Positions 184 through 22,665 of a stretch of 33,587 nucleotides of DNA are shown piece by piece (position 1 is the stretch's first letter; every line of letters starts with the position of its first letter). A program made the position numbers and the translations under genes. The notes beneath the pieces were generated by a model. It saw only the letters and a program-made list of their open reading frames with translations. It searched no databases and was not told the origin of the DNA. This DNA is from Verrucomicrobiaceae bacterium (GTDB taxonomy: Bacteria; Verrucomicrobiota; Verrucomicrobiia; Chthoniobacterales; Chthoniobacteraceae), in contig SXWH01000098.1 of assembly GCA_005791535.1 (NCBI GenBank), forward strand, positions 1-33,587. The letters are read 5' to 3'.

Positions 184-3100
184 ATGACTCTCACCACTCG
201 TTTTGCCCGTTCTGCAGCCGTCCTGCTCGCGCTGTCAACCGCATCCGTTCACGCCGATCCGCAACTCACCTCCTGGTTCACTACGAACTCCGGGAAGTAT
301 GCGCGAATCTATCAGAGCACGGCGAACGAAACCGCTGGGACGACTTCGACAACGTGGAGTCGTGGGTCCGGCACTCAGACGAATCCCGTTTATGCGGACG
401 TTAACGAGATCAATTACTCCGCGAACTGGATCTACATCCGGACATCGGGTCTCGCATCGCACATCATGGGGCCGTGGTACCTCGATGCGGCGAAGACGCA
501 GAACTTCCCGAATTTTCCGTCGAATACGGCTGTCGTTTACCGCATTCCTCGTTCGCCGGTGATTCCCGCCACGAAAACGCTCACGGGGCTCGGAGCGACC
601 GGGCGGATGGTAAATGGCGTGTCCATGTTCGATAGTCGCGACGCTTTCTCTTACGTAAATGCGAGCGCGCAGGATGCTACGCCGACGAATGGGTTGACGG
701 GCGACGGCATTTGGAATCGCGACGGATACCACAACGAGGGTGTCACTTTCGACCCGGCGCTCGCGCACCAGGCGGGAAACAACTACCACTATCACGCGCA
801 TCCCATCGGCCTGCGTTATCAACTCGGTGACCACGTCGATTATAATCCGACGACAAATCGCTACACCGAAAGCGCAGCGACACCGACCGCGCACTCGCCA
901 ATCGTGGCTTGGGCGGCGGATGGTCTGCCGGTTTACGGACCTTACGGCTACAGCGATCCGACCAACCCAAGCAGCGGAATCCGCCGGATGGTCTCGGGCT
1001 TTACGCTCCGCGATGGAACGAACGGAACGACGGCGATCACGGTCCGGCAGGTTCTCCCGCTCTGGGCGCAGCGCGTGCAAAACCGCACGACGCTTGCCGC
1101 GAACCAATACGGTCCGGCAGTGAACGCGACGTATCTGCTCGGGCACTACATCGAGGACTTCGACTACCGCGGCGACCTCGGACAGACGCAGACAACCGGC
1201 GCGACGATTCGTGATTTCGATCTGAACGAGCAAAATGTCCGCTTCTGCGTGACACCGGAGTATCCCGCAGGCACGTGGGCTTACTTCACGCCAATCAATG
1301 CGGATGGCACGCCGCAGTATCCTTACACCACGGGCCGCGCTTATTATGGCACGCCATCGGGCGGCGCCTCGTCGGCGGCGGTGATGAATGCGGACACGCC
1401 GCTCACGCAGCATTTCATCGGCGGAGCAAACAAGGCGCTCGCGATTCCGACGACGCCGACCGTCTCCGGCAACACCGTTACGGTGACATGGAGCGCGGTG
1501 GAGGGCGGCACGTACAGCGTGGATGCTTCGCCGACGCAGGCGACTTGGACGAGCAAGGCGACCGGTCTTGTTGCGACGGATATTTCCCGGAGCACCAGCT
1601 ACACGGCCCTCGGCTCGAGTGGAACGGAATACGCCCGGGTGAACCGCACGGCGCTTGCGACCTACGACACGAATGGTCAGACCGCGGCGACCGTCGCTCA
1701 GAGCACCATCGCGAGCTATTCGCTCACGCCGAATACGCCGCCGACCATCACGGGAATTTCCGCGCAATCGGTGGCGATGAACACAGCGACCAGCGCGCTG
1801 GCGGTGACGGTGGGCGATGCGGAAACGGCAGTTGCGAGCCTGACGATGATTGGTTCTTCGTCGAACACGACGCTCGTTCCGAACGCGAATATCATCTTCG
1901 GCGGCAGCGGCGCGAGTCGCACGGTGACAGTGACTCCCGCGCAGAGCCAGACGGGCTCCGCGACAATCACTGTCGGCGTGAACGATGGGCAGACAACGAC
2001 GAACACCACATTCACACTGACTGTCACCGGGACGAATACGGCCCCGACGATTTCGTCGATTGCGAACCAGAGCACGAACCAAAACACGGCGACTTCTGCG
2101 ATTCCTTTTACTGTAGCAGATGTGGACACAGGCGCTGCGAGCCTGACTCTCAGCGGATCCTCGGCAAACACGACACTCGTTCCGAATGCGAACATCGTTT
2201 TCGGTGGCAGCGGCGCGAACCGCACGGTGACAATCACCCCGGCTGCCGGGCAGACCGGCAGCGCCGCGATCACCATCACGGCAAATGATGGTGCTGCGAC
2301 AGCCGGCACGACGTTTACTTTGACCGTCGTTCCGACAGCGCCGACGATTACGAACATCACCGCGACGCCTGCTTCTCCGACGAGCGCGGACACAGTGGTC
2401 ATCAAAGCGAACATCACACCGTCTGCCGGGCGCACGATCTCGAGCGCACAGCTCACGTATAACGCCGGGACAGCATCAACCACGGTCTTTAACGAAACCA
2501 TGGGCACCGTAGCGGCGACGGCCTGGACGGGCGCTGGCACGGTGCATCCGTGGACGATCACATTTGCCGGACCGCCGCAGTCGCCTTTCGCGCAATCCGC
2601 GGCGTCGAATCACACACCGAGCGGACAGGGGAATCAGTTCGGAATGGAAATCACTGCAAATGCTCCGCAGATCGCGAACAGCACGATGACGACGACGAAC
2701 AACATCAACGCCACCGGCACATCGGGCACGGTGAGCTTCTGGGTTGCATCGTCGGGCCTTACTGGCACGCAGGGATGGGACTTCCAGACTTCCACCGACG
2801 GCACGACATACACCACGCGGCTGAGCGAACTTACGGGCTCGAATCACGCGTATCAGCAATACACCTACACTCTTTCCGCCGCGGAACGCGTGAGCACATT
2901 GAAGCTGCGCTTCCGCTTTGCCGGGCCGGGAATGTCGAATGTCCCGAAGGTGTATCTCGACGACATCTCGGTGGTCGTTGGTGGCGGCAGTTCGCCGGTG
3001 ACGGTGAACATGCTCGACAACGGCCTCAATGGCGACGGCGCTGCGGGCGACGGCGTTTACGGATACAGCGCGATTCCGGCGCAGGCTACGGGCGCGACGG

Positions 3101-5715
3101 TCAATTACACCATCGCCGCGACCGACAGCGCATCGGTCACCACGACGATTGCGAATAACTCATACACTGTCGTCGCGGCGGCACCGGTGCTTGCGGTTAC
3201 ACCTGCGACTGGACTCACATCGACGGGCACAATTGGCGGGCCGTTCACACCATCGAGCGCGGTTTACACGATCTCGAATACCGGCAATGCCTCGATGAAC
3301 TGGACCGCTGCGAAGACCGTCGCATGGGTCACGCTCTCGAGCACGGGTGGCACACTTGCAGCGGGTGCAAACACCACAGTCACCGCGAGCATCAATACCT
3401 CCGCAAATTCGCTCGCAGTCGGCAGCTACAGCGACACGATTACGTTCACGAATACGACCAACGGCACCGGAAATACAACGCGTTCCGTGAGTCTCGCGGT
3501 CGGCTCGAACACCGCGCCTTCCGCACCTGTCCTCACGGCGCTGCCGCTGTTCAGCCAGGGCGCAAGCAAGAGCATTTCCTGGCCGGCAGTTAGCGGTGCG
3601 ACGAGCTACACGATTCAAATCGCGACCGATGCCGCATTCACCACGAGCGTCGTGTCGCAGACCGTCACCAGCCCGGGCGCGACGTTTACGAATCTCGCGA
3701 GCGGCGTGACCTATTACTACCGCGTCGTCGCGACGAATGCCATCGGCTCCTCGGCGGCGAGTAACGTCGTCTCGTCCACGCAGGACAGCGTCGCTCCGCT
3801 TGTGGCGATAACGTCGCCCGCGTCGGCGTTTTCCACGGCGACAGCCACGCTCACTGTCAGCGGAACGAGCTCGGATGCGCTTTCCGGCGTGAGCAACGTC
3901 ACGGTCAACGGCGTCAACGCCACGACCTCGAACAACTTTGCGACGTGGAGCGTCTCCATCCCGCTCGGCTACGGCACGAATGGCATCACTGCTGTCGCCT
4001 ACGATGCCGCTGGAAACGTCACGACCACAGCACCGGTGAATGTCACCCTCACCGCCACGCAGACCTACAATCCGCTCATTATTCCCGAACTGATGACCGG
4101 AACGACGTTCAATTTAAACCTCCACAATTCCGCGAAGCGCTTCGGCAATACGGCATTTCAAAACACCGCCGACACCACGACCATCAGCTACAACAACATG
4201 CTCATGTGGGGCCCCACGCTCATCATGAACAAAGGCGACTGGGTGCAACTCAACGTCACCAACAATCTCGCCGAATCCACCACCACGCACTGGCACGGCT
4301 TCCACATCCCCGCGATCATGGATGGCGGCCCGCACCAGATAATCCCCGCCGGCACCACGTGGCGTCCGCAATTCAAAGTGGATAACAACGCCGGCACTTA
4401 CTGGTACCATCCGCACCTCCACGAACACACGCAGGACCAGCTCACGAAAGGCGGTGGCGGTATGATCATCATCCGCGATCCCATCGAGTCCGCGCTCAAT
4501 CTTCCGCGCACTTACGGCGTCGATGACATCCCGCTCGCGCTCACCAGCCGCCGCTGGGCTGCGAACCAGTTTGTCACGGGACTCGCAGGCGTCACACAGA
4601 GTGCATACGGCGACTACATGCTCGTAAACGGAACGCTCAGTCCGCAGATCACGCTGCCGAAGCAGTACGTCCGCCTCCGCATCCTCAACGCCGAGATCGA
4701 GCGCAGTTACAACCTCGGCTTCAGCGACGGCCGCACCTTTTACCAGATCGCCACCGACGGCGGCCTCGTGAATGCGCCCATCGCCTTGACCCGCCTCGTT
4801 CTCGCAGTCGGCGAGCGCGCGGAAATCCTGGTCGATCTCACCGGCGCGACAGTCGGCTCATCGTTCGACTTGCAGGCGTTCAACAGCGGACAGGCAAACG
4901 ACTTCCCCGGCGGCGAACCAGCCACCACCGGTCAGTTTGGCAGTTTGCTCAACAACACCACGTTCAACATCCTGCGCATCAACGTGGGCAACCCCACCGC
5001 AAATCCCGTCAACACGCGTCCTGCCACGCTCACGACGAACACATTCTACGGCCTCACCGACGTGACGAACACCCGCACCGTCACCATCACCAACGGTTTC
5101 CCCGGCAGCGGTCTCCCGTTCAGCTTCGACAACCTCGTGTATTCGTCGAACGTGATTAACCAGAACCTCAACCTCAACGCAGTCGAGCGCTGGAACATCA
5201 CCAACACCTCCGCCTTCAGCCACTCGTTCCACATCCACGACATCCAGTTCAAAATCATCTCCCGCACCGGCGGCAACAACGCCGGCGTGAAAGCGTTTGA
5301 AGACGGCTGGAAGGACACGCTCTTCATCGGTCAGAACCAGACCGTGAGCTTCATCGCGAAGTTCGATGGATTCGCCAGCGAGACCAATCCCTTCATGTAT
5401 CACTGCCATTTCTCAAACCACGAAGACGAAGGCCTCATGGGCCAGTTCGTGGTGAAGAACAACGCCACCGAAGCGCTCGCCATCTCCAGCTTCATGCGCA
5501 CCGGCGACAACAGTCTTATCCAACTCGACTTCCGCGCGACTCCCGGCACGACCTACACGCTCCAGTATCTGAGCGACCTCACCACCGGCACGTGGACCGA
5601 CATCGGCAGCGTCACCAGCGACGGCAGCACTGCGACCTTTACAGAAACAGACGCCGCGCGCCTCGCCCAGCCCCGCGGATTCTACCGCGTGACGATTCCC
5701 GTAATCACGCAATAG
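184..5715 (+). CDS. Secreted YHYH-Ig-like-multicopper oxidase fusion protein
   Basis: Very large exported protein of 1843 aa. The start is the ATG at 184, because it opens a signal peptide (about residues 1-24, ending SVHA) with a weak GGAA 8 bases upstream; the frame is open further upstream but without signal character. Order of parts: YHYH domain (about 120-350, NNYHYHAH at 199-206); two tandem Ig/cadherin-like repeats (517-615 and 618-716); choice-of-anchor X-like region (about 719-997); BACON-like repeat (1000-1109); fibronectin III (1111-1199); another Ig-like domain (1204-1293); three-domain multicopper oxidase (about 1296-1759); and a C-terminal module also seen in other verrucomicrobial secreted proteins. 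All copper motifs are present: HWHG at 1369, HPHLH at 1409, HSFHIH at 1680, HCHFSNH at 1740. By spacing, the axial type 1 position (Cys1741+10) is Leu1751, as in high-potential laccases. The substrate is unknown; oxidation of phenols or metals outside the cytoplasm is inference. It is probably co-transcribed with the sulfatase 8 bp downstream. Confidence 0.9.
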   Translation: MTLTTRFARSAAVLLALSTASVHADPQLTSWFTTNSGKYARIYQSTANETAGTTSTTWSRGSGTQTNPVYADVNEINYSANWIYIRTSGLASHIMGPWYLDAAKTQNFPNFPSNTAVVYRIPRSPVIPATKTLTGLGATGRMVNGVSMFDSRDAFSYVNASAQDATPTNGLTGDGIWNRDGYHNEGVTFDPALAHQAGNNYHYHAHPIGLRYQLGDHVDYNPTTNRYTESAATPTAHSPIVAWAADGLPVYGPYGYSDPTNPSSGIRRMVSGFTLRDGTNGTTAITVRQVLPLWAQRVQNRTTLAANQYGPAVNATYLLGHYIEDFDYRGDLGQTQTTGATIRDFDLNEQNVRFCVTPEYPAGTWAYFTPINADGTPQYPYTTGRAYYGTPSGGASSAAVMNADTPLTQHFIGGANKALAIPTTPTVSGNTVTVTWSAVEGGTYSVDASPTQATWTSKATGLVATDISRSTSYTALGSSGTEYARVNRTALATYDTNGQTAATVAQSTIASYSLTPNTPPTITGISAQSVAMNTATSALAVTVGDAETAVASLTMIGSSSNTTLVPNANIIFGGSGASRTVTVTPAQSQTGSATITVGVNDGQTTTNTTFTLTVTGTNTAPTISSIANQSTNQNTATSAIPFTVADVDTGAASLTLSGSSANTTLVPNANIVFGGSGANRTVTITPAAGQTGSAAITITANDGAATAGTTFTLTVVPTAPTITNITATPASPTSADTVVIKANITPSAGRTISSAQLTYNAGTASTTVFNETMGTVAATAWTGAGTVHPWTITFAGPPQSPFAQSAASNHTPSGQGNQFGMEITANAPQIANSTMTTTNNINATGTSGTVSFWVASSGLTGTQGWDFQTSTDGTTYTTRLSELTGSNHAYQQYTYTLSAAERVSTLKLRFRFAGPGMSNVPKVYLDDISVVVGGGSSPVTVNMLDNGLNGDGAAGDGVYGYSAIPAQATGATVNYTIAATDSASVTTTIANNSYTVVAAAPVLAVTPATGLTSTGTIGGPFTPSSAVYTISNTGNASMNWTAAKTVAWVTLSSTGGTLAAGANTTVTASINTSANSLAVGSYSDTITFTNTTNGTGNTTRSVSLAVGSNTAPSAPVLTALPLFSQGASKSISWPAVSGATSYTIQIATDAAFTTSVVSQTVTSPGATFTNLASGVTYYYRVVATNAIGSSAASNVVSSTQDSVAPLVAITSPASAFSTATATLTVSGTSSDALSGVSNVTVNGVNATTSNNFATWSVSIPLGYGTNGITAVAYDAAGNVTTTAPVNVTLTATQTYNPLIIPELMTGTTFNLNLHNSAKRFGNTAFQNTADTTTISYNNMLMWGPTLIMNKGDWVQLNVTNNLAESTTTHWHGFHIPAIMDGGPHQIIPAGTTWRPQFKVDNNAGTYWYHPHLHEHTQDQLTKGGGGMIIIRDPIESALNLPRTYGVDDIPLALTSRRWAANQFVTGLAGVTQSAYGDYMLVNGTLSPQITLPKQYVRLRILNAEIERSYNLGFSDGRTFYQIATDGGLVNAPIALTRLVLAVGERAEILVDLTGATVGSSFDLQAFNSGQANDFPGGEPATTGQFGSLLNNTTFNILRINVGNPTANPVNTRPATLTTNTFYGLTDVTNTRTVTITNGFPGSGLPFSFDNLVYSSNVINQNLNLNAVERWNITNTSAFSHSFHIHDIQFKIISRTGGNNAGVKAFEDGWKDTLFIGQNQTVSFIAKFDGFASETNPFMYHCHFSNHEDEGLMGQFVVKNNATEALAISSFMRTGDNSLIQLDFRATPGTTYTLQYLSDLTTGTWTDIGSVTSDGSTATFTETDAARLAQPRGFYRVTIPVITQ
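1732..2331 (+). repeat. Two tandem Ig/cadherin-like repeats in the oxidase gene
   Basis: Two consecutive units of about 300 bp (roughly 1732-2029 and 2035-2331) encode near-parallel sequences. Each begins with a (N)T(P/A)PTI motif, contains SS(S/A)NTTLVPNANI followed by FGGSGA, and ends in a TFTLTV strand. A third, more diverged copy lies at about 7064-7363 in the sulfatase gene (SSSNTTVVPAANVV, then GGSGTART). These are extracellular beta-sandwich spacers of unknown binding role. Confidence 0.8.
2338..3510 (+). repeat. Shared accessory cassette, copy 1 (in the oxidase gene)
   Basis: This block encodes a segment with WTGAGTVHPWTI, FQTSTDGTTYTTR, SELTGSNHA, a choice-of-anchor X motif (GDGAAGDGVYG) and a BACON-like unit (WVTLSSTGGTLAAGANTTV). 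The same modules occur in the same order in the sulfatase gene at about 7370-8520. Similarity is visible at both protein and DNA level (for example shared runs around 2785-2850 and 7800-7865), which points to an internal duplication or domain exchange between neighbours. Confidence 0.8.
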
Positions 5716-5723: not shown

Positions 5724-8700
5724 ATGCACATCCACCGGATTCTTCGGCTGGCGTGCCTGCTTTTGTTCGCGAGCTCCGCGGTGGCCGGCAATAATGTGCT
5801 GCTCATCATCGCGGACGACTTCGGTCTCGACGCCAGCGCCGTTTACAACACGGCACCGGGAGTCCAGCTCGCGCCGACGCCGAACATCGCGTCGCTTGCT
5901 GCGAATGGGGTGAAGTTCACCAACGCGTACAGCTATACGGTCTGTTCTCCCGCGCGTTCGTCGGTTCTCACGGGGCGATTCGGCTCCCGTACCGGCACTG
6001 CGAATGTTGCGGGTGGCCCGGCATCGAACAATGGGCTGAAAGCAACGGAGTTCACGCTCCCCGACGCCTTCGCTGCGAACGCCGGGCTGAACTACCAGTT
6101 GAAGCACGTCGGGAAATGGCACCTCGGCGGTGCGAACACCGCACCGTGCCTCATCGGTGGATGGCCCTCTTTCTCCGGTCCGCTGATTGGGGAGATCGAC
6201 GACTACATGAATTGGACGAAAGTCACGGGCAGCGGAGCCTCGGCGAGCAGCAGCACCGTAACGACGTATGCCACGACGGACAATGTGAACGATGCGCTTT
6301 CCTTCATCAGCACTCAGACTGCGGCGGGGAAACCGTGGTTCACGTGGGTAGCGTTCAATGCGCCCCATACGCCTTATCACAAGCCGCCGGACAATCTACA
6401 CACTTACGACACGACTGTGGCAAACTGGGCGACTCTCCCGGTCACCGGAAACTCGCTGGTCCACTACAACGCAGCGATCGAGGCGATGGATACCGAGATC
6501 GGGCGTCTGCTTGCGGGAGTGAACCTCGCGACGACGACGGTGATTTTCATCGGCGACAATGGAACTCCGCCAGCGACCTTGCAGGCTCCATACCCCGCGA
6601 ATCGAGGGAAGGCGACGCTCTACGAAGGCGGGATTCGCGTGCCGATGATCATCCGGGGCGCGGGTGTGGTGTCGCCCGGTCGCACGTCAACGGAGTTGGT
6701 GCATGTCGTGGATTTGTATTCCACGATTCTTGAACTCGCCGGGATCAATGTCGGCAGCACGGTTCCGTCGGGAACGGTGCTCGATTCGCAAAGCCTGATG
6801 CCCATTCTGCAAGGGCAACCCGGAACGAGAACGAGGGTGTTCGATGACTATTGGGACCTCGCGTTTCCGTCGCTCAGCGACGCGGGTCGCACATTGCGCG
6901 ATTTGCAATACAAGCTCGTGCGTTTGAATGATGGCACCGAGCGCTTTTACGATCTCAACGCGGACCCATACGAAGGGACAAACCTCATCGCCGCGGGATT
7001 CGCTGCGATGAATTCCACGCGTCAGGCCGCATATACATCGCTTGCCACGCAGTTCCCGGACTTCAACACGCCGCCGACGATTTCGGGAGTTGCGAACCAG
7101 AGCGTGCCGCAGGGCGGAGCGACCGGCGCGCTCGCATTCACCGTGGGCGATGGCGAGTTGAATACAGCGATTCTTTCAGTCACCGCGTCGTCTTCAAACA
7201 CCACGGTGGTCCCCGCTGCGAATGTTGTTTTAGGCGGCTCGGGCACGGCGAGGACTGTGGCCGTCACCGCGGCAGCGGGACAGATCGGGACCTCTACGAT
7301 CACGCTCAGCGTCACCGACGGCGTGTTTACAACGAGCACGAGCTTCGTGCTTTCAGCCGGGAGTCCCGCCACTGTTTCGCCGACCACCATCGCGCCATCG
7401 GTTCCCACCAATACAGACACGGTCACAGTCACCGCCGCCGTGACACCATCAGGCGGTGCGACAGTTTCCTCGGTGCAACTCGGCTACAGCACGGGGACTT
7501 CGACGAATACCGTCTTTGCGGAAACGATGGCGGCTGCGGCGGCGAATCCCTGGACCGGCACCGGCGCGGTGTATCCTTGGACAATCACCAACACGGGCGC
7601 TGGCGGCATGACCGTGAAGCAAACAGTCGCGGCAAATCACGGCGCGGGGAATCCGTGTGGACTCGACTTCAGCAGAGGCACCGCCAACGTAGCGCAGTCC
7701 ATGGCGGCGACGACGAACGCGATCGATGCTACCGGCTCCGCGGCGTTCGTGGAGTATTGGGTGTATGCGGCGGACCTCGTCTCGCCAAATGGTTGGACGT
7801 TCCAGACATCCACCGACGGCACGACGTGGACGACGCGGCAGAGCGAGCTCACCGGAAGCAATCACGCGTTCCAGTTGTTCCACTACGACCTCTCGGCGAC
7901 GGAGCGCGTCAGCACATTGCGAATCCGCTTTCAGTTTGCGGGAAATGCGACGAACACGCCGCCACCAAAGGTCCGGATCGACGACATCACCGTTGTCACC
8001 ACCACTCCGAATCCGCCCACCGTCGTGACGATGTTTGACGACGGAGCGCACGGCGACGGCCTCGCGGGCGACGGCATTTACGGCGGCGCGATTCCACCGC
8101 AGACCACCGGCACGACTGTAAACTACACCGTCACCATGACAGACAGCGCCGCCGGGACCGCGAGCAGCTCGGGGAGCTTTCAGGTCGCTGCCGCCGCGCC
8201 CGTGCTGACGGTGACTCCCGCATCGACGCTCACCTCCACCGGCACCGTGGGGAGCGGCGTCTTCTCACCATCGAGCGTGACTTACACCATCGCAAACACC
8301 GGCACCGGAACCATGACCTGGAGCGCCTCGAAATCCGCCGCGTGGGTCACGCTCAGCAGCACAAACGGCACGCTCGCATCCGGTGCAAATACCACCGTCA
8401 CCGCGACGATCAACGCCACCGCGAACACGCTCGCCATCGGCAGCTACAGCGACTCCATCGCTTTTTCAAACACCACCAACGGCACCGGCAATACCACACG
8501 TCCGGCGAGCCTCGCAGTCACCACCGCATTCGCCACATGGCAGATAGCAAATTTCACCGGCGGCGCCAGCCACCCCGACGCCGCCGCGATGCTCGACCCC
8601 GACAAGGACGGCCTCGTCAACCTCATCGAGTACGCCCTCGGCACAAACCCCAATTCCAGCAGCCCAAACCCCGCAACGATCAGCAAGGTGAACATCAGCG

Positions 8701-8906
8701 GCAGCGACTACATCCGTATCAGCTTCACGAAAAACCCCGCCGCCACCGACGTGACCACCACCGCACAATCCAGTCTCGACGCCGGCTCGTGGGGGACCAA
8801 TGGTTTCATCATCGAAAGCAACACCGCGACCGAGCTCATCATCCGCGAAACCACGCCCGTCGGCACAGCGACGCAGCGGTTTTATCGCGCACTCGTGACG
8901 CAATAG
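5724..8906 (+). CDS. Secreted formylglycine-type sulfatase with C-terminal Ig-like/BACON-like modules
   Basis: Exported sulfatase of 1060 aa, hydrolysing a sulfate ester, probably of a polysaccharide; the substrate cannot be read from sequence. Signal peptide about 1-22. The sulfatase domain spans about 23-445: metal-binding Asp31-Asp32 (IADDFG), the Cys74-Ser-Pro-Ala-Arg78 motif whose Cys is converted to formylglycine, KWHLGG around His133, and GDNG at 277-280. No formylglycine-generating enzyme or anaerobic maturase is in the window. The C-terminal half repeats modules of the oxidase upstream: Ig-like (447-547), choice-of-anchor X-like (549-823) and BACON-like (825-933). It ends in a verrucomicrobial C-terminal region with a calcium-binding-like DPDKDGLVNLIEYALG loop at 958-973. 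The start at 5724 follows a good ribosome binding site. It lies 8 bp behind the oxidase gene, so the two are probably one transcript. Confidence 0.92.
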   Translation: MHIHRILRLACLLLFASSAVAGNNVLLIIADDFGLDASAVYNTAPGVQLAPTPNIASLAANGVKFTNAYSYTVCSPARSSVLTGRFGSRTGTANVAGGPASNNGLKATEFTLPDAFAANAGLNYQLKHVGKWHLGGANTAPCLIGGWPSFSGPLIGEIDDYMNWTKVTGSGASASSSTVTTYATTDNVNDALSFISTQTAAGKPWFTWVAFNAPHTPYHKPPDNLHTYDTTVANWATLPVTGNSLVHYNAAIEAMDTEIGRLLAGVNLATTTVIFIGDNGTPPATLQAPYPANRGKATLYEGGIRVPMIIRGAGVVSPGRTSTELVHVVDLYSTILELAGINVGSTVPSGTVLDSQSLMPILQGQPGTRTRVFDDYWDLAFPSLSDAGRTLRDLQYKLVRLNDGTERFYDLNADPYEGTNLIAAGFAAMNSTRQAAYTSLATQFPDFNTPPTISGVANQSVPQGGATGALAFTVGDGELNTAILSVTASSSNTTVVPAANVVLGGSGTARTVAVTAAAGQIGTSTITLSVTDGVFTTSTSFVLSAGSPATVSPTTIAPSVPTNTDTVTVTAAVTPSGGATVSSVQLGYSTGTSTNTVFAETMAAAAANPWTGTGAVYPWTITNTGAGGMTVKQTVAANHGAGNPCGLDFSRGTANVAQSMAATTNAIDATGSAAFVEYWVYAADLVSPNGWTFQTSTDGTTWTTRQSELTGSNHAFQLFHYDLSATERVSTLRIRFQFAGNATNTPPPKVRIDDITVVTTTPNPPTVVTMFDDGAHGDGLAGDGIYGGAIPPQTTGTTVNYTVTMTDSAAGTASSSGSFQVAAAAPVLTVTPASTLTSTGTVGSGVFSPSSVTYTIANTGTGTMTWSASKSAAWVTLSSTNGTLASGANTTVTATINATANTLAIGSYSDSIAFSNTTNGTGNTTRPASLAVTTAFATWQIANFTGGASHPDAAAMLDPDKDGLVNLIEYALGTNPNSSSPNPATISKVNISGSDYIRISFTKNPAATDVTTTAQSSLDAGSWGTNGFIIESNTATELIIRETTPVGTATQRFYRALVTQ
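7370..8520 (+). repeat. Shared accessory cassette, copy 2 (in the sulfatase gene)
   Basis: Homologous to 2338-3510 in the preceding gene, with the same module order: WTGTGAVYPWTI, FQTSTDGTTWTTR, SELTGSNHAF, GDGLAGDGIYGG and WVTLSSTNGTLASGANTTV. With the Ig-like unit at 7064-7363 in front, the whole C-terminal arrangement mirrors the middle of the oxidase. The copies differ at many codons, so the duplication is not recent. Confidence 0.8.
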
Positions 8907-9709: not shown

Positions 9710-9752
9710 CGGCGACGATGAAGCACCATAGTGCCGCCAGTGGCGAAGAGCG

Positions 9753-10118
9753 ATGAAACGAATAACCAAGGTTTTCGGTATCGCCGTCACCGTTGCATTA
9801 CTTCTTTGCATCGGCGTCTATCGGATGTGGCGAAGTTCCGCGACCCTGATTCCCGGATGGACATCGCACAGTCCTGACGGGAGGTTCCGTATCGAGTTCT
9901 ATCGGGTTTGGACTATGAGCGGTTGGCTGGGCACGCCACCAGGACAAGGTTCGGATGCAATTGATGGGTTTATCCGTCTTTATCGTTCGGACGGGACATT
10001 GCTCCAGGAGACGTACCGTAATTTCCTTCGGGGCTACGAACCACGATGGAGCGATGATGAAGCATACTTCCCCGGCGACGGGCCTGTGTGGAAGCTGCCA
10101 GAAACGAAAGGCCACTAG
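9753..10118 (+). CDS. Hypothetical protein with N-terminal membrane anchor
   Basis: Unrecognised protein of 121 aa. A basic N-terminus (MKRITK) is followed by one hydrophobic helix at about 8-25, then a mostly polar domain with SPDGRFRIEFYRVW and a YRSDGTLLQETY strand pair, the sort of beta-rich region seen in small periplasmic lipoprotein-like or immunity-like proteins. No lipobox and no catalytic motif were seen. The bases just before the ATG (GAAGAG) are purine rich but very close. It sits 43 bp after the PepSY-like gene. The function is unknown. Confidence 0.5.
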   Translation: MKRITKVFGIAVTVALLLCIGVYRMWRSSATLIPGWTSHSPDGRFRIEFYRVWTMSGWLGTPPGQGSDAIDGFIRLYRSDGTLLQETYRNFLRGYEPRWSDDEAYFPGDGPVWKLPETKGH

Positions 10119-10214
10119 CCGCCACCGTCCTTTACATCCCGCTGACAATTTTCCAGATGCACCGTCGCCCATTTCCCATCATGGTCGAAGCGTTATGCTG
10201 TTCTTCTTCCACTC

Positions 10215-11786
10215 ATGAAATTTGCACGGTTTGCACTCATTGCGATTGCTGCGGCGTGCGGCTGGTTTGGCGCGACGATGGCGCATCGGACTACGACGGC
10301 TCCGGCTGGACGCAAGGTGTTGTTTTTCCAAAGCCCGATGCATCCGTGGGTGAAGTCCGACAAGCCGGGGCAGTGCACGGTTTGCGGTATGGACCTCGTG
10401 CCGGTGTACGAGGGTGGCGCGAGTTTCGATAACGCGGCGAGTGGTCTGGTGATGCTGCCGCAGGGCAGTCCGAATGTCGTGGGCGTGCAGACGGTGGAGG
10501 TGAAGAAGCAGCCGCTCGTTCGCACGCTGCGTGTGGCGGGGATGATCGGCGAGGACGAGTCGCGCCACGGGGTCATCAGCGCGCCAGTGGAGGGGCGGCT
10601 CGACGGGTTGGCGATGAATCACGAGGGTCAGCAGGTGACGCGTCGCCAGCCGCTCGCCACGGTGTTCAGCCGCACGCTGCTCGCCGCCGCCGAGGAATAC
10701 AAAGCTGCGCTGGCACAGGGCGAGGCCGCGGCCGAAGCTGCGAAGCGCAAGCTGGAGCAGCACGGGCTGGTGTGGGAGCAGATTAAGACCATCCCGCAGC
10801 GGCAGCCGGATGATATTTACTTCGGCATGCTCGCGCCGCTGACGGGGACGATCGTGAAGAGCTACGTGCACGAAGGGCAGTATGTGAGGAAGGGCGAGCG
10901 GATGTTTGAAATCGCGGACTTTTCGCGGATGTGGTTCATGTTCGCAGTTCCGGAGCAGGACCTGCCGCTGGTGAAAGTCGGGCAGCTTGTGAACGTCACG
11001 ACGCCGACTCTGCCGGGCGAGACGATGCGCGGACGCATCGCGGGAATCAGTCCGAGCATCAACGAAATGATGCGCGCCGCCGATGTGCGCGTGGTGCTGG
11101 ATAATCCGGAGCGAAAGCTGAAGAACAAATCGTTTGCGCAGGGCACGGTGGAACTCGAAGCGCCGGAGGTCGCCGTGATTCCGCGGAGCGCGGTGTTGTG
11201 GCCGGGGAGTTCGCCGCGCGTGTTTGTGGAAAAGGCTGAGGGCACTTACGAGCAGCGCAGCGTGAAGCTCGGGCGCGCGGAAGATTCGCTGTGGGAAGTG
11301 CTCGACGGCTTGCGCGAAGGCGAGCGCGTTGTGGTGCGGGGGAATATGCTCATCGACAGTCAGGCGCAGCTCGACGCGATGGCTGTGCAGCCTGCCGGGG
11401 AGACCGCTCCACTTTCTCCACAGCTCGTCGATTTGCTCCGCGCAGCAGCCGCGCTTTCCGCCGCGCTGGCGAAGGATGATTTGTCCTCAGCAAATGCGGT
11501 GGTCGCGAAACTGCCGCCGCCGGATGCTCCTGTGAAAACGCCTGCGCCGGTCGCCAGTGCAGACCTCGCGACGCTGCGGAAGAGTTTCCTCCCGTGGAGC
11601 CAGGAGCTCGCGGCGCTCGCGGTGAAGGCGGGGATTCCCGACGTGCGGGTCTTCCGGTGCTCGATGACCGGCCAGCTCTGGCAGGGCGCGCCCGAGGCTG
11701 CGTCGTGGATTCAATCCGGCAGCGAACCGCGAAACCCATACTTTGGCGCGGAGATGCTGGAGTGCGGAACGGAAGTGAAACGATGA
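10215..11786 (+). CDS. cusB: CusB-type RND efflux periplasmic adaptor with heavy-metal-binding and DUF3347-like domains
   Basis: Periplasmic membrane-fusion subunit (523 aa) of a Cus-type copper/silver efflux pump; it joins the inner-membrane CusA pump to an outer-membrane channel and delivers metal. An N-terminal signal/anchor (about 1-23) precedes a heavy-metal-binding domain at about 35-65 with PMHPW (Met42, His43) and CTVCGMDLVPVY (Cys54, Cys57, Met59). The first Cys of the usual CPMHP form is replaced by Ser40. The central lipoyl/barrel-sandwich and beta-barrel regions follow (about 90-385). The C-terminal region (about 395-520) resembles DUF3347, ending in RNPYFGAEMLECG. The ATG at 10215 is the natural start. 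The stop overlaps the start of cusA by 4 bp. No outer-membrane CusC/TolC partner or metal-responsive regulator lies in the window. The 96 bp upstream contain no convincing promoter. Confidence 0.92.
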   Translation: MKFARFALIAIAAACGWFGATMAHRTTTAPAGRKVLFFQSPMHPWVKSDKPGQCTVCGMDLVPVYEGGASFDNAASGLVMLPQGSPNVVGVQTVEVKKQPLVRTLRVAGMIGEDESRHGVISAPVEGRLDGLAMNHEGQQVTRRQPLATVFSRTLLAAAEEYKAALAQGEAAAEAAKRKLEQHGLVWEQIKTIPQRQPDDIYFGMLAPLTGTIVKSYVHEGQYVRKGERMFEIADFSRMWFMFAVPEQDLPLVKVGQLVNVTTPTLPGETMRGRIAGISPSINEMMRAADVRVVLDNPERKLKNKSFAQGTVELEAPEVAVIPRSAVLWPGSSPRVFVEKAEGTYEQRSVKLGRAEDSLWEVLDGLREGERVVVRGNMLIDSQAQLDAMAVQPAGETAPLSPQLVDLLRAAAALSAALAKDDLSSANAVVAKLPPPDAPVKTPAPVASADLATLRKSFLPWSQELAALAVKAGIPDVRVFRCSMTGQLWQGAPEAASWIQSGSEPRNPYFGAEMLECGTEVKR

Positions 11787-14700
11787 TCGATGCGCTCATC
11801 ACATGGTCGCTGAGGAACCGCTTCCTTGTAGTATGCGCCACGCTTTTCCTGGTGGCGTTCGGCATCAAGGCGCTGCGCGAAACGCCCGTGGATGCGCTGC
11901 CGGACCTGAGCGAGAATCAGGTGATCGTCTTTGCCGACTGGATGGGCCGGAGCCCGCAGGAGGTGGAGGACCAAATCACCATGCCGCTCTCCGCGAGTCT
12001 GCGAGGGCTTGCGCAGGTGAAGAGCGTACGGGCGACGAGCATGTTCGGTTTTTCGCTCATCAACGTGATTTTTGAAGACGGCGCGGACAAGGCCGCCGCT
12101 CGTCAGCGAATCTTCGAACGGCTGAATCTTGAGAGCGACGCGCTGCCGGATGGCGTAAAAGCGAAGCTTGGCCCGGACGCTACGGGGCTCGGCTGGGTCT
12201 ATCAATACTACCTCGAAGTCGATCCCGCGGCCGGACACCAATATGACCTCGGCGAGCTTCGCTCCGTGCAGGATTCATTCGTGCGAAATCATCTCAACGC
12301 GGTGCCCGGGGTGGCGGAAGTGGGGAGCGTCGGCGGATTCGTGCGGCAGTATCAGGTCGAAGTGGATTCGCAAAAAATGCGTACCGCCGGTGTGTCGCTG
12401 AACATGGTGATGATGGCCGTGAGCCAGTCGAATCTCAACGTCGGTGGAAAGAGCATCGAGGAGAACGGCATGGAGTTTATCGTGCGCGGAATCGGCGTGA
12501 TCCGCAGCGCGGAGGACCTGGAGAGAATCGCGGTGATGGAAAACGTGTTGCTCAAAGACATCGCCCGCATCGAGCTCGGCGGCGATTTCCGGCGCGGCGC
12601 ACTCGACATCGGCGGCCGCGAAATCGTCGGCGGAACCGTGGTGATGCGCACCGGCGAAAACGCCCGCGAAGTCATCGCGCGGGTGAAGGCGAAGGTCGCG
12701 CAGATTTCCGCCGCGCTTCCGCCGGGCGTGAGCATCAAGCCGTTCTACGACCGCAGTGAGCTCATCGACCGAACCATCGACACGCTCAAAACCGCACTCA
12801 TCGAGGAACTCGTGCTCGTGACGCTCGCGCACATCATCTTCCTGTTTCACTTTCGCAGCATCTTCATCGTGATGATCCCGCTGCCCGTGAGCATTTTGAT
12901 CTCGTTCATTCTCATGCGCGAGTTCGGCTTCACATCGAACATCATGAGCCTCTCGGGCATCGCCATAGCCATCGGCGTGCTCGTGGACGCCGCCATCGTT
13001 ATCACGGAAAACGTCATCCGCCGCTGCGAGCAGGCCGGGAACACAAACGCGGAAACCATTCTCGCTGCGGCGAAGCAAGTCGGGCGGCCCATCGTTTTCG
13101 CGATGGCGATCATCATCCTCGCGTTCATCCCCGTCTTCGCGCTGAGTGGGATGGAGGGTAAAATGTTCCACCCGCTCGCATTCACAAAGACGTTCGCGAT
13201 GCTCGGTTCCACGCTGCTCGCGGTGACCATCGTGCCCGTTCTTAGCACCTGGCTCGTGCGCGGACCCTTCCACGCGGAAGACCGGAACATCGTGATGCGT
13301 GTCCTGCTGAAACTCTACGATCCAGCGCTCGATTTCGCCCTGCGGCGGAAAAAGACGACCATCGCCTGCGCCGCGATCATCCTCGCTGGAGCGCTCGCAC
13401 TCGTTCCGCGCATGGGCTCGGAATTTATGCCTCCGCTCAACGAAGGCAGCCTGCTTTTCATGCCGAGCTTCACGCCCGCCACATCGCTCTCGGATGTGAA
13501 GCGCGCGATGGCGTGGCAGGATAAGGTGTTCGCGAGCTTTCCCGAGGTGCGTAGCGCCGTTGGAAAGCTCGGACGCGCCGAAACCGCGACCGACCCAGCG
13601 CCGGTGGAGATGATAGAAACGACCATCATGCTCAAGCCCGAGAGCGAATGGCGCAGCGGTATGACTAAGCAGAAGCTCATTGCCGAGATGATGGACGCAC
13701 TGCGCAAAGTGCCCGGCTCCATTCCCGGATTTCTCCAGCCCATCGAGGGTCGCGTCCTCATGATTTCCACCGGCATCCGCTCGCAGCTCGGCGTGAAGAT
13801 TTTCGGCGACGACCTCGGCAAACTCCAGCAGGCCGCGTTCGACGCGCAGCGGATTATTCAAAGCGTGAGCGGTGCGACGGGCGTCACGCCGAGCCGCATT
13901 CAGGGTAAGCCGTATATCGAGATTGCGCTGAATCGCGATGCCATCGCACGAGTCGGAATGAGGGCTCAGGATGTCCTCGAAACAGTCGAAGCAGGGCTTG
14001 GCGGAACGACTGCGACCACCGTGCTCGAAGGCCGCCAGCGCGTGCCGGTTTCCGTGCGCCTGCAACGCAGCGAGCGCGAGGATTTGACCCGGCTCAAAGA
14101 TGTCCTCGTCACCACGCCATCGAAACAAGTCATCCCGCTCGGCCAGATCGCGAGCATCAAACGCGTAGAAGGCCCGAATGAAATCTCCAGCGAGAACGGC
14201 CAGCTCCGCGCATACGTGCAGGTTAACGTGAGCGGGCGCGACCTCGGCGGATTTGTCGAGGAGGTGAAATCCCGCCTGCAAAATGAACTCGCGCCGAAGC
14301 TCGCCGCGCAGGGCATGACGCTCGATTACAGCGGCGAGTACGAGAATCAACTCCACGCGGCGCGCACGCTGAAGTTCATCGTGCCGTCGGTTCTGTTCAT
14401 CATCTTCGCGCTGCTCTTTCAACTGTACGGAAAAGCCCGCGAAGCAGCGCACGTCCTCCTCGCAATTCCCTTTGCGCTCAGCGGCGGTGTCTTTTTGCAA
14501 TACGCGCTCGGCTGGAATTTCAGCGTCGCCGTGTGGGTCGGTTACATCGCGCTTTTCGGCACTGCCGTACAAACGAGTGTCGTAATGGTCGTGTATCTCG
14601 ACGAGGCCGTGGAACGCGCCCGCAAGCAGAGCGTCGGTGCGTTCTCGCAAGCCGACCTCATTATTGCAGTGAAAGAAGGTGCGCGCCTCCGCCTTCGGCC

Positions 14701-14908
14701 AAAAGTAATGACGGTCGCGACGATCATCGCCAGCCTGCTGCCCATCATGTGGAGCCAGCGCGCCGGTTCGGAAGTGATGCAGCCACTTGCTACGCCCATT
14801 CTCGGCGGAATGCTCAGTAGTCTTGTTCACATTCTGATTGTCACGCCCGTGGTGTTTTTGTGGTTGAGGATGCGTTCGCTCGGCATCAATTCCGGCTTCA
14901 GGGCATGA
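11783..14908 (+). CDS. cusA: CusA-type heavy-metal efflux RND transporter
   Basis: Inner-membrane proton-driven RND pump of the HME class (1041 aa), exporting monovalent copper or silver together with CusB. It starts MIDALITWSLRNRFLV with a first membrane helix, then ETPVDALPDLSENQVIV, and has the AIGVLVDAAIVITENV helix-4 motif carrying the proton-relay Asp. The methionines that line the CusA metal site appear conserved in context: PVEMIETT, VLMISTGI and the Met of ARVGMRAQDV correspond, by remembered alignment, to Met573, Met623 and Met672 of the E. coli protein. The start at 11783 sits in an ATGA overlap with cusB, and the end has another ATGA overlap with the MbnP-MbnH fusion gene, so the three are translationally coupled. 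Length matches the family. A long open frame on the opposite strand is a codon-bias shadow. Confidence 0.94.
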   Translation: MIDALITWSLRNRFLVVCATLFLVAFGIKALRETPVDALPDLSENQVIVFADWMGRSPQEVEDQITMPLSASLRGLAQVKSVRATSMFGFSLINVIFEDGADKAAARQRIFERLNLESDALPDGVKAKLGPDATGLGWVYQYYLEVDPAAGHQYDLGELRSVQDSFVRNHLNAVPGVAEVGSVGGFVRQYQVEVDSQKMRTAGVSLNMVMMAVSQSNLNVGGKSIEENGMEFIVRGIGVIRSAEDLERIAVMENVLLKDIARIELGGDFRRGALDIGGREIVGGTVVMRTGENAREVIARVKAKVAQISAALPPGVSIKPFYDRSELIDRTIDTLKTALIEELVLVTLAHIIFLFHFRSIFIVMIPLPVSILISFILMREFGFTSNIMSLSGIAIAIGVLVDAAIVITENVIRRCEQAGNTNAETILAAAKQVGRPIVFAMAIIILAFIPVFALSGMEGKMFHPLAFTKTFAMLGSTLLAVTIVPVLSTWLVRGPFHAEDRNIVMRVLLKLYDPALDFALRRKKTTIACAAIILAGALALVPRMGSEFMPPLNEGSLLFMPSFTPATSLSDVKRAMAWQDKVFASFPEVRSAVGKLGRAETATDPAPVEMIETTIMLKPESEWRSGMTKQKLIAEMMDALRKVPGSIPGFLQPIEGRVLMISTGIRSQLGVKIFGDDLGKLQQAAFDAQRIIQSVSGATGVTPSRIQGKPYIEIALNRDAIARVGMRAQDVLETVEAGLGGTTATTVLEGRQRVPVSVRLQRSEREDLTRLKDVLVTTPSKQVIPLGQIASIKRVEGPNEISSENGQLRAYVQVNVSGRDLGGFVEEVKSRLQNELAPKLAAQGMTLDYSGEYENQLHAARTLKFIVPSVLFIIFALLFQLYGKAREAAHVLLAIPFALSGGVFLQYALGWNFSVAVWVGYIALFGTAVQTSVVMVVYLDEAVERARKQSVGAFSQADLIIAVKEGARLRLRPKVMTVATIIASLLPIMWSQRAGSEVMQPLATPILGGMLSSLVHILIVTPVVFLWLRMRSLGINSGFRA

Positions 14909-16668
14909 GTCACGATAGTTCAAAGTCGTATGAGCACCGGAGTTTCGGGCGGAGTGTGATGCTCGTGCTTCTGGCGGTTCTCTTTTGTGCTGGAATCAGC
15001 CGTGCGGCGTCGCTTGAAGTTTCATTCCGGCATCAATTCGGGAACGAAGGGCTTATTCTTGATTCCCTCCGGTTTCAGAATACGGCGAAGGAGACGCTTT
15101 CGTTCACGCGGGTCAGTTATCTTTTGAGCGGGTTTGCGCTTGAGCGGGAGGATGGTGGATGGGTGGAGTTCCCCGATTCTTACGCATGGATCGATGCGGG
15201 AACCCGTCGGGATTCCTGCCGGATTGAGATGATTCCTCCCGGCAAGTACCGTGCGGTCCGTTTTCACATTGGACCCGATCCAGCGGCAAATATCCGGGAA
15301 CCGTCGCAGTTCGCGCCGGAGCATCCACTGAACCCGAATCTGAATGGACTGCACTGGAGCTGGCAGACGGGATACATATTTCTAGCGCTCGAAGGGCGCT
15401 ACCGCGCGGGGGGACTCGATGGCTTCTCGCTGCATCTCGCGCGCGATCCGAACAGGACGCGTGTCAGTCTCGCAGTTCCGCTGGATCTGACGGCGGATAC
15501 CGCATTGGTGTTGGATTTCGATCTCGCGGTGCTGCTGAATGCTCCGCGAGCGCTTTCGTTTGCGAAGGATGGCGTCGCGACGCATTCACGGGACGGTGAC
15601 CCGGTTGCGGCGGCTCTTGTGGCGAACCTGCCGGGCGCTTTTCGCGTGGTGCAGGTTCTTTCGGCGAAGCCCGCGATTTCGCGCCCGGCGCCGGTGAAGC
15701 CACTCTATCTTCCGGAAAAATACACGCCCTATCGGTTCACGATGAATGTGACTTTTCCGCTGCCGGATTTGCCGCGGGACAATCCCTTGATTGAAGAGCG
15801 TGTGGCGTTGGGGAAGGCGTTATTCAGCGAGACGGCGCTTTCCAGGGATCGTTCGATTTCCTGTGCATCGTGCCATGTCGCAAACTTCGTGTTCACGGAC
15901 GCACGGCGATTCAGCATTGGTGTCGATGGACGGAAAGGAACTCGAAATTCGATGCCGCTGATGAACCTCGCGTGGAAGACTTCCTTTTTCTGGGATGGTC
16001 GCGCGCCGTCGTTGCGGACGCAGGCGCTGATGCCGATCGAGGATCATGCCGAGATGGATGAGAGTGTGCAGAATGTGATCCGGAAGCTCGGGGAGGACGC
16101 CAGTTATCCGCGAATGTTCGCGGCTGCTTTTGGAGCGCCGGAGATGACTGCCGAGAAGATTGGCCTCGCGCTCGAGCAGTTCATGCTCACGCTTTTGGCG
16201 GGTGATTCAAAATTTGATCGCGCGATTCGCGGTGCAGCGACGTTTTCCGATGACGAGAGGCGGGGCTTTGAGCTGTTCATGACCGAGTTTGATCCGCGGA
16301 CCGGTCAGCGCGGCGCTGATTGCTTTCATTGTCACGGCGGCCCGCTTTTCAGCGACCATCAGTTTCACAATAACGGACTTTCTCCGACCGAGGATACGGG
16401 CCGGTTCCGCGCGACAGGAAAGGATTCCGATCGCGGGAAGTTTGCCACACCGAGTCTGCGTAATATCGAGCGGACGGCGCCGTACATGCACGACGGACGC
16501 TTCGCGACGCTTGAGGAAGTCGTGGAGCACTACAGCAGCGGAGTTCAACGAACTGCGACGTTGGATCCGAATCTTGCGAAGCACCCGAAAGGTGGGATCG
16601 CCCTCTCCGCCGATGAGCAGAAGGCGCTGGTGGCGTTTCTCCGCACATTGTCGGACGTGCGGGAGTAG
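14905..16668 (+). CDS. MbnP-like copper-binding domain fused to MbnH-like di-heme cytochrome c peroxidase
   Basis: Single exported polypeptide of 587 aa combining two proteins that are normally separate partners. A signal peptide (hydrophobic 18-31, ending SRAA) is followed by an MbnP-family domain at about 36-255, with GLHWSWQTGY around 148-157 (Trp151, Trp153) and ATHSRDGDPVA. A proline-rich linker leads to an MbnH/MauG-like di-heme domain at about 275-587, with heme motifs CASCH (320-324) and CFHCH (473-477). In characterised pairs MbnH oxidises a Trp of MbnP to kynurenine, which creates a copper site; whether that happens here is inference. The start (ATG at 14905) overlaps the stop of cusA by 4 bp, so translation is coupled to the copper pump. 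No methanobactin precursor or MbnB/C enzymes are present. It converges on glnD with only 5 bp between stops. Confidence 0.9.
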   Translation: MSHDSSKSYEHRSFGRSVMLVLLAVLFCAGISRAASLEVSFRHQFGNEGLILDSLRFQNTAKETLSFTRVSYLLSGFALEREDGGWVEFPDSYAWIDAGTRRDSCRIEMIPPGKYRAVRFHIGPDPAANIREPSQFAPEHPLNPNLNGLHWSWQTGYIFLALEGRYRAGGLDGFSLHLARDPNRTRVSLAVPLDLTADTALVLDFDLAVLLNAPRALSFAKDGVATHSRDGDPVAAALVANLPGAFRVVQVLSAKPAISRPAPVKPLYLPEKYTPYRFTMNVTFPLPDLPRDNPLIEERVALGKALFSETALSRDRSISCASCHVANFVFTDARRFSIGVDGRKGTRNSMPLMNLAWKTSFFWDGRAPSLRTQALMPIEDHAEMDESVQNVIRKLGEDASYPRMFAAAFGAPEMTAEKIGLALEQFMLTLLAGDSKFDRAIRGAATFSDDERRGFELFMTEFDPRTGQRGADCFHCHGGPLFSDHQFHNNGLSPTEDTGRFRATGKDSDRGKFATPSLRNIERTAPYMHDGRFATLEEVVEHYSSGVQRTATLDPNLAKHPKGGIALSADEQKALVAFLRTLSDVRE

Positions 16669-16673
16669 CAAAA

Positions 16674-19478: not shown

Positions 19479-19501
19479 GGAACGGAGAGTGTGTTCTTGT
19501 C

Positions 19502-19522
19502 GCCGCACCCCGCGGGTGCGGC
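19502..19522 (-). other. Perfect 9-bp inverted repeat between the Minf_1886 gene and glnD
   Basis: GCCGCACCC (19502-19510), a 3-base loop CGC, and GGGTGCGGC (19514-19522) form a very GC-rich hairpin in the 51-bp gap ahead of glnD. There is no U-tract, so it is not a standard intrinsic terminator. It could protect or process the transcript, or act as an attenuator. It covers the alternative GTG start at 19508. Confidence 0.6.
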
Positions 19523-19529
19523 CGGAATC

Positions 19530-19961
19530 CTAGGACTTCAGCGATTCGACCCGCCTGCCGCCGTTCTCGTGTTTGGGCGTCGCCGCTGGGAGGTAGGGCG
19601 CGACGAAGGCATCGTGGAATGAATAGACCGCTTTAAAGTCGTCGAGCGAGTCATTCTGGGTTTTGCCGAACACACCGAGTTCAATCAGATTCCAGACCAT
19701 GTTTCCGAAGTCATCGGTTTTGCGGATACCCCAATACTCGAGGACAGTCGGAACCATCGGGCCGAATTGCTTCAACGCGTGCTGCCGAATGCCTTCGCAA
19801 AGTTGTTGTCCCGTCACATGCCCGCCCTCACCAAGCTGGCGTTTGCGCAGCTTTACCGTTTGGTCCAGCGCATCCCTCAGAAAGAAGTACGCGTCCCGCG
19901 GGTAGCGGGAGTCGGCTTCGGTAATGAGTTCGACGGCTTCTCCGAATTCAAGTTTCTGCAT
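19530..19961 (-). CDS. Minf_1886 family protein, unknown function
   Basis: Protein of 143 aa matching the Minf_1886 family (the Plancto-Verruco conserved hypothetical family). Visible signatures: RYPRDAYFFLRDALDQTV, GHVTGQQLCEGIR, FGPMVPTVLEYWGI and DDFGNMVWNLIELG. Function is not known; it has no signal peptide or membrane helix and should be cytoplasmic. Its main value here is taxonomic. The ATG at 19961 is chosen because the family begins just there (MQKLEFGEAVELI) and a GGCGGGG-like element precedes it; an in-frame start at 20006 adds an atypical 15 residues. It lies upstream of glnD on the same strand and is divergent from the prenyltransferase-repeat gene. Confidence 0.88.
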   Translation of the reverse strand: MQKLEFGEAVELITEADSRYPRDAYFFLRDALDQTVKLRKRQLGEGGHVTGQQLCEGIRQHALKQFGPMVPTVLEYWGIRKTDDFGNMVWNLIELGVFGKTQNDSLDDFKAVYSFHDAFVAPYLPAATPKHENGGRRVESLKS

Positions 19962-20141
19962 GTTGGACCCCGCCAAAGTAGGTGCGGATTTTGATGCCGT
20001 CAACAATCGCGCTGCCTTGGGTGGCGCGCTTTATCCGGCGCTTGGTGGGTTTTTTTTGCGGATTCCGCGAATTTCCCTGCGCCGAAGAAAGTTTTTTTCA
20101 TTGCACCCCTAATAAAAGCACGCTGCCATCCGTAGCGCTGT

Positions 20142-20170
20142 TTGACAGCTCTCCAACCTTTCGATTTAAT
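20142..20170 (+). promoter_or_regulatory. Sigma70-type promoter, predicted leaderless start
   Basis: TTGACA (20142-20147), a 17-bp spacer and TTTAAT (20165-20170) match the consensus closely. The ATG of the downstream gene begins at 20177, only 6 bp after the -10 element, so transcription would begin at or next to the start codon. No Shine-Dalgarno sequence precedes the ATG. This is the best promoter in the window. Confidence 0.75.
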
Positions 20171-20176
20171 CTACCC

Positions 20177-21655: not shown

Positions 21656-21686
21656 TCCGCGCCGCACTGGGTTGGTTTAAAACTAC

Positions 21687-21719
21687 GAAAAACGCAGGAG
21701 GCGACTCCTGCGTTTTTTC
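21687..21719 (+). terminator. Rho-independent terminator
   Basis: ACGCAGGAG (21692-21700), loop GCGA, then CTCCTGCGT (21705-21713) running into TTTTTT. The perfect 9-bp stem extends through A:T pairs with the preceding A-run, so it could also act on the minus strand. It lies 32 bp after the stop of the prenyltransferase-repeat gene. Confidence 0.9.
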
Positions 21720-21800
21720 TTTGGCGGGATTTGGGAATGAAAATGCGCGTTGCACGATTTCCGCGTTGAAACTGCGGCCCTTCCGTGAATGCTCGCCAGC

Positions 21801-22661: not shown

Positions 22662-22665
22662 TGGG

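Follow-up and report, generated by a model that had tools for sequence, protein, structure and literature searches.

An MbnP-MbnH fusion gene next to cusBA in a Verrucomicrobiaceae genome and its predicted kynurenine copper site

The window analyzed in this study is a 33,587-nucleotide stretch of a Verrucomicrobiaceae genome (GenBank assembly GCA_005791535.1, contig SXWH01000098.1), and directly behind the exporter genes cusB and cusA it contains a gene that joins an MbnP-like and an MbnH/MauG-like domain in one reading frame. In separate-gene systems, MbnH oxidizes a tryptophan of MbnP to kynurenine, which creates a copper site, and the di-heme enzyme MauG oxidizes tryptophan in its partner protein. 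The MbnP/MbnH pair is already known, and the one-polypeptide form is a variant of it. On balance, the sequence analyses favor the view that the fusion is an exported, self-maturing copper protein that would use MauG-type chemistry to build a kynurenine site and would hold or hand over copper.

Domain architecture of the fusion protein

Translation of the gene yielded 587 residues followed by a stop codon, which confirms the continuous frame proposed in a first-pass annotation of the window (Table 1). Its assignment of the two halves was also borne out. The N-terminal half exceeded the cutoff of the Pfam MbnP family PF20243 (104.5 versus 27 bits, residues 36 to 213) and the C-terminal half that of Pfam CCP_MauG, PF03150 (182.7 versus 25.6 bits, residues 297 to 445), and the two CxxCH motifs were located in the C-terminal half. 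Among the six NCBIfam models listed for the fusion, the MbnH model TIGR04039 gave the top score. Like MauG, the heme half is a di-heme domain, but its score with the MauG model TIGR03791 (203 bits) was below the cutoff of 443.85.

A profile of the N-terminal half matched a single PDB chain at E values up to 1, namely, 7l6g (E = 1.5e-4). The best solved relative of the C-terminal half was the di-heme enzyme 6e1c, with peroxidases also among the best. We take 7l6g and 6e1c to be the MbnP/MbnH pair of Methylosinus trichosporium. In Methylocystis parvus, the annotated MbnP aligns with 7l6g almost end to end, and the gene adjoining it matches 6e1c far better than any other solved structure. Three plasmid records annotate the MbnP-adjoining gene as "methanobactin export MATE transporter MbnM" (L181, 3615 to 4775; L182, 3016 to 4185; L183, 3110 to 4261), a name that looks wrong because the M. 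parvus gene matches 6e1c almost throughout.

The fusion protein is probably exported, since its start resembles a signal peptide as judged by eye and by a hydropathy peak, in agreement with the annotation. No strongly hydrophobic stretch was seen by hydropathy at residues 240 to 320. An assembly join or frameshift between the halves was ruled out: the identical layout occurs in other genomes, and the fusion is therefore not an assembly artifact.

Table 1. Positions of the fusion gene, its parts, and its neighbors in the window
Feature	Position	Strand	Basis
MbnP-MbnH fusion protein	14905..16668	+	One frame, 587 aa then stop
Signal-peptide-like segment, residues 1-34	14905..15006	+	Visual inspection; hydropathy maximum at residues 17-18
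MbnP domain, Pfam-matched residues 36-213	15010..15543	+	PF20243; alignment extends to about residue 253
Trp151, first Trp of WxW, predicted kynurenine	15355..15357	+	Aligned with WNW of 7l6g
His177, predicted copper ligand	15433..15435	+	Alignment to MbnP, conservation
His227, predicted copper ligand at conserved-Met place of methanotroph-type MbnP	15583..15585	+	Alignment
Pro-rich linker, about residues 254-289	15664..15771	+	No second signal peptide seen
MauG/MbnH-type di-heme domain, residues 290-584	15772..16656	+	TIGR04039 and PF03150
Heme motif CASCH, residues 320-324	15862..15876	+	CxxCH by sequence
Trp363, inter-heme Trp position	15991..15993	+	Alignment
Heme motif CFHCH, residues 473-477	16321..16335	+	CxxCH by sequence
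Tyr543, MauG/MbnH axial Tyr position	16531..16533	+	Alignment
cusA, Cu/Ag-type RND exporter	11783..14908	+	TIGR00914 over cutoff; ATGA shared with cusB and with the fusion gene
cusB, RND adaptor with heavy-metal-binding domain	10215..11786	+	Pfam HlyD_D23, HMBD
Sulfatase-like protein	5724..8906	+	Pfam Sulfatase; ATG 5724, 8 bases past upstream stop
YHYH + multicopper oxidase protein	184..5715	+	Pfam YHYH, Cu-oxidase_3, Cu-oxidase_2 over cutoff

Predicted copper site and heme-half residues

To assess residue conservation, we aligned 57 fused and 43 separate MbnP domains together with a further 4. The fused sets of the N- and C-terminal halves each comprise 57 rows (55 distinct sequences); the N set includes the frameshifted L140, and the C set has L010 in its place. 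The motif GLHWSWQTGY spans residues 148 to 157, and by alignment it is Trp151, not Trp153, that corresponds to the kynurenine-forming Trp of MbnP. Trp occupies position 151 in all 57 fused, all 43 separate, and all 4 further rows, which agrees with the conserved Trp expected in the annotation; Trp153 is kept in 55 of the 57 fused rows.

Methanotroph MbnP is said, in work reported in PNAS in 2021, to hold Cu(I) by His, Met, and solvent near the kynurenine, which reportedly derives from the first Trp of WxW. The fusion shares with the methanotroph pair the domain types, this first Trp, one His, the Tyr, and the inter-heme Trp. The shared His would be His177, for which conservation suggests that it is the counterpart of the MbnP His ligand (57/57 fused, 42/43 separate, 4/4 further rows). 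In contrast, the place of the Met conserved in methanotroph MbnP is position 227, and because this is His in 57/57 fused rows, the copper site of the fusion is probably not of the MbnP-type His/Met kind. His227 would replace the Met ligand of MbnP, conservation again pointing to that Met as the ligand. Separate MbnP proteins share His227 in 28 of 43 rows; of the other 15, five have Met, five have a gap, three have Ser, and two have Gly, with the alignment near this position unsure for some separate rows. Of the 4 further MbnP proteins, those of Methylocystis, Paracoccus, and Trichormus have Met as part of a conserved CMS motif, and that of Deinococcus has Gln. A further difference concerns Cys: the PDB name of 7l6g refers to a four-Cys motif, whereas the fusion has a single Cys between residues 35 and 289.

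The predicted His/His/kynurenine site would correspond to the CorA/MopE ligand set on an MbnP-type domain. As described in an excerpt of PMC3912023, CorA holds copper by two His, one water, and kynurenine, and the di-heme protein CorB is co-transcribed. Excerpts of PMC3621798 and PMC3912023 describe both MopE-SACCP and CorA-CorB as systems with kynurenine and two His at one copper and a di-heme partner encoded alongside. MopE and CorA are copper-repressed surface proteins of methanotrophs encoded by separate genes (PMC3912023, same excerpt), whereas the fusion is one gene. Alignment to MbnP places a MopE/CorA-like set of two His and one Trp in the fusion, and no MopE or CorA chain was among the PDB matches (C-terminal half, E up to 0.001; N-terminal profile, E up to 1).

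In the heme half, both CxxCH motifs, Trp363, and Tyr543 are all kept in 57/57 fused and 57/57 separate rows. Tyr543 aligns with a Tyr of 6e1c and with a Met of the peroxidases 1iqc and 4aao. Its counterpart in MauG is an axial ligand, and the inter-heme role of the Trp363 position is known from MauG and peroxidases.

These residues bear on the alternative that the di-heme domain is a peroxidase or electron-transfer module, with the MbnP domain serving only as its tether to a partner or to sites under copper stress and Trp151 being structural. PF03150 covers peroxidases too, some of them are close among the solved relatives, and Trp151 is invariant also in separate MbnP, so that conservation alone leaves its purpose undecided. 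However, position 543 is Tyr and not the peroxidase Met in every fused row, Trp151, His177, and His227 are all kept in 57/57 fused rows, and the MbnH model outscores every other NCBIfam model listed. We therefore regard this alternative as improbable.

Eight loci with separate pairs encode a second di-heme gene beside the MbnH-like one (L024, L032, L036, L039, L045, L048, L054, and L056); at the position of Trp363, seven of these second genes have Arg and one has Ser, and none has Trp. The C-terminal segment LDPNLAKHP (residues 553 to 561, positions 16561 to 16587) is near-invariant in the fusions, with Asn556 and His560 in 57/57 fused rows, and is not conserved in this way in separate MbnH-type proteins. 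It may mark a contact between the two domains.

Occurrence and origin of the fused form

In the host assembly, which is 86.6% complete, the fusion gene was the single match to MbnP and also the single match to CCP_MauG. Should the site be matured at all, the fused di-heme domain is the sole maturase candidate seen in the genome, and the two lone matches strengthen the idea of self-modification. A search for the MbnB family PF05114, positive in 2 of 14 control genomes, gave no match in the host genome; there is no sign of methanobactin, in line with the independence from it that the annotation had suggested. In contrast, the relatives in M. parvus are two genes in a methanobactin operon context. 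The MbnP/MbnH pair is conserved far beyond methanobactin producers (excerpt of PMC3621798). The words "fusion" and "fused" are absent from the main text of that paper, an excerpt of PMC12607021 contains nothing on MbnP-MbnH fusions, and none is mentioned in titles or abstract beginnings among the matches listed, mainly from the open literature; we do not claim priority.

Among the 80 loci that were the best matches in the genome collection, 23 are fused (L003 to L023, L025, and L026). This count includes L010, which is truncated by a contig end yet still extends from the last portion of the MbnP half into the heme half. Verrucomicrobiota is the label of 22 of these loci, and L005 is labeled only "bacterium." No fusion was seen in the other 57, nine of which showed no detectable MbnP half (L034, L041, L050, L053, L060, L063, L064, L068, and L081); the match in L034 starts at a contig end. 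The window's family yielded 12 near-full-length matches in 11 of 40 genomes, with 18 of the 40 giving no match and G031 carrying both parts at contig ends. Across the phylum sample, 22 of 387 genomes had a Pfam MbnP match (27 rows representing 26 genes), and 25 of the 26 genes, including that of the window, are fused, 24 of them intact and one (G147) frameshifted. The sole unfused gene is a short frame in G160, from another class of the same phylum.

Outside Verrucomicrobiota-labeled records, the closest relatives of both halves come from Bacteroidota and others, where the MbnP and MbnH-type genes are adjacent and separate, never one frame in the sets examined. Two other phyla were sampled, and no fusion was seen in either. 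An MbnP match was present in 78 of 296 genomes from the phylum of G426, a Dyadobacter genome and by name a member of Bacteroidota; all frames were at most 517 residues, and the longest were not MbnP-MbnH fusions. The phylum of G428, a metagenome-assembled genome (MAG) labeled Gemmatimonadetes, had matches in 14 of 64 genomes, none fused. The long frames in the two phyla were rejected as fusions: MbnH is the next, separate frame behind the 517-residue frame of G663, separate di-heme frames adjoin the 402- and 397-residue frames of G651, and the 527-residue frame of G786 carries MbnP at its end, preceded by another part. None of 351 plasmid records with a match spans 80% of the query in one place. 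The search of the phylum of G427 returned the genomes of the G426 search, which were counted once; G427 (locus L046) is a MAG labeled Phycisphaerales, and its label and placement seem discordant.

For phylogenetic analysis, L010 and the frameshifted L140 were labeled fused, and L149, the same gene as L140, was dropped. In a quick tree of the N-terminal half, the 57 fused rows formed one side of a branch with a support of 80, below the starred level. For the C-terminal half, the quick free tree required two label changes, and fused rows as one clade were not rejected (p-AU 0.797); a rejection (p-AU 4.8e-5) was obtained with the fused L010 labeled separate and was discarded. Quick searches missed better trees in both halves, and the branching is unsure. 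The trees allow a single fusion event without proving it, and a clade of the fused rows plus the Sumerlaeota-labeled L029 was likewise not rejected (N-terminal half, p-AU 0.766). L029 encodes YHYH, MbnP, and MbnH proteins as three adjacent separate frames and lies near the fused rows in the trees. This arrangement may resemble what preceded the fusion.

Gene neighborhood and proposed function

As described in the annotation, the start of the fusion gene overlaps the stop of cusA on ATGA, and the start of cusA overlaps the stop of cusB likewise. Its reading of the exporter as a copper exporter was also supported: aligned with E. coli CusA (3t51), the protein has all three Met of the triad, which we take to be 573/623/672 in E. 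coli. In two genomes of the same genus (L114 and L115), the multicopper oxidase, cusB, cusA, and fusion genes stay together, the L115 stretch examined excluding the YHYH part of the oxidase homolog.

To compare neighborhoods, 45 distinct fused loci were counted (L010 left out, the repeats L178 and L180 dropped, the frameshifted L167 included). These loci are best matches and survey hits and hence nonrandom, their flank lengths differ, and the queries came from Verrucomicrobiota. YHYH proteins were found near 23 of the 45, giant galactose-oxidase-like proteins near 8, and cusA near 3; for separate loci, the counts were 1, 0, and 2 of 57, with a multicopper oxidase near 1. The proposed coupling to cusBA is thus upheld for the window and the two same-genus genomes and not in general, and since cusA is near only 3 fusions, cusBA is one of several contexts. 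The survey suggested in the first-pass annotation confirmed the fused architecture for nearly all MbnP genes of the phylum sample and revealed YHYH and oxidase-like proteins as its wider neighbors. Proteins with copper-enzyme domains appear to be a recurrent theme beside the fusions.

The frames of the giants (L016 at 9560 to 17557, L018, L019, L021, L025, L120, L121, and L174) begin near the stop of the fusion. Scans of L016 and L025 revealed kelch, galactose-oxidase E-set, Ig-type, and C-terminal di-heme domains, and the other six were assigned by similarity to L016. The position of Tyr543 is His in both giants checked.

The following sequence of events seems the most likely. Export and heme attachment would come first. 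The di-heme domain would then take H2O2 or O2, reach a high-valent state spread over both hemes and Trp363, and oxidize Trp151 in the MbnP domain joined to it to kynurenine, in cis or in a second copy. This would open a single Cu(I) site with His177, His227, and the kynurenine nearby. From sequence, we infer kynurenine at Trp151, Cu(I) at His177/His227, and action in cis. The fusion would then hold periplasmic copper or hand it to secreted copper enzymes, and CusBA would expel the excess. Such a holding or handing-over role appears likely because, in the host genus, the protein can be produced together with a YHYH-multicopper oxidase and a Cu(I) exporter. We propose only tentatively, and with more doubt than confidence, that in the window's class the cis-made His/His kynurenine site is a copper-loading factor for secreted oxidases outside methanotrophy, these being the YHYH-multicopper oxidase and the kelch/galactose-oxidase-like proteins with their own di-heme domain.

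Several observations weigh against a self-maturing copper protein. Neither NCBIfam model of the pair reached its cutoff, with 230.4 versus 362.85 bits for TIGR04039 (residues 290 to 584) and 31.1 versus 140 bits for the MbnP_like_WxW equivalog TIGR04052. Tyr543 is kept in all eight second di-heme genes, none of which has the inter-heme Trp, and Tyr543 alone is therefore no proof of Trp oxidation. A separate MbnH could be missing from the incomplete host assembly, and relatives carry further di-heme genes without MbnP (G032, contig C120; G031, contig C18; and G004), G032 and G031 being of the same genus as the host. None of the four neighbors sought was found at 13 of the 45 fused loci; in 6 of these a contig end truncates at least one flank (L003, L004, L006, L008, L013, and L017), and the flanks of the other 7 are longer. 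The weakest step is copper hand-over to oxidases, which gene neighborhood alone suggests.

The same neighbors could also be targets, with the fusion maturing secreted enzymes in trans by oxidizing a residue of a multicopper oxidase, YHYH, or galactose-oxidase-like partner and the MbnP domain acting as copper donor or docking piece. The excess of YHYH and galactose-oxidase-like proteins at fused over separate loci speaks for this. However, all fused rows retain the target Trp within the MbnP domain itself, no partner residue is known to be modified, and the Verrucomicrobiota-derived queries may miss distant relatives elsewhere, so that we hold maturation in trans to be unlikely. A copper sensor or buffer serving the CusBA exporter only, unrelated to oxidases, would fit the ATGA overlap with cusA and the adjoining cusB, cusA, and fusion genes in L114 and L115, but the rarity of cusA near fusions argues against export as the general role, and this explanation seems very unlikely.

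If the fusion does mature itself, one polypeptide would build its own amino-acid-derived copper site, and Trp-to-kynurenine chemistry could be tested without a two-protein complex. The His/His versus His/Met split offers a direct structure-function test, and the YHYH and galactose-oxidase-like neighbors gain a first functional lead. The gene shows the MbnP/MbnH module outside a methanobactin setting, retained as a fusion in the carriers sampled from a single bacterial class.

Among the other genes of the window, the YHYH-multicopper oxidase frame opens at TTG 130 (1,861 residues), and the ATG at 184 gives a signal-peptide-like start by eye. The protein contains the motifs YHYH, HWHG, HPHLH, HIH, and HCHxxxHxxxxL, and these His-rich motifs are presumably copper motifs. 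Because the host genome has five YHYH matches, this protein is not unique in it; three weak matches lie in large frames elsewhere in the genome, within an 8-kb stretch of contig C84 (G000, 17039 to 25032). The homolog of the sulfatase-like protein in L113 shares one frame with a YHYH domain and adjoins the fusion. Two small frames without a Pfam match lie between the sulfatase gene and cusB, and a convergent glnD-like gene follows the fusion. Histidine-kinase-like genes were observed near the fusions of L008, L009, L013, L015, L017, L026, L168, and L171, and Pfam confirmed this identity for L015 and L017.

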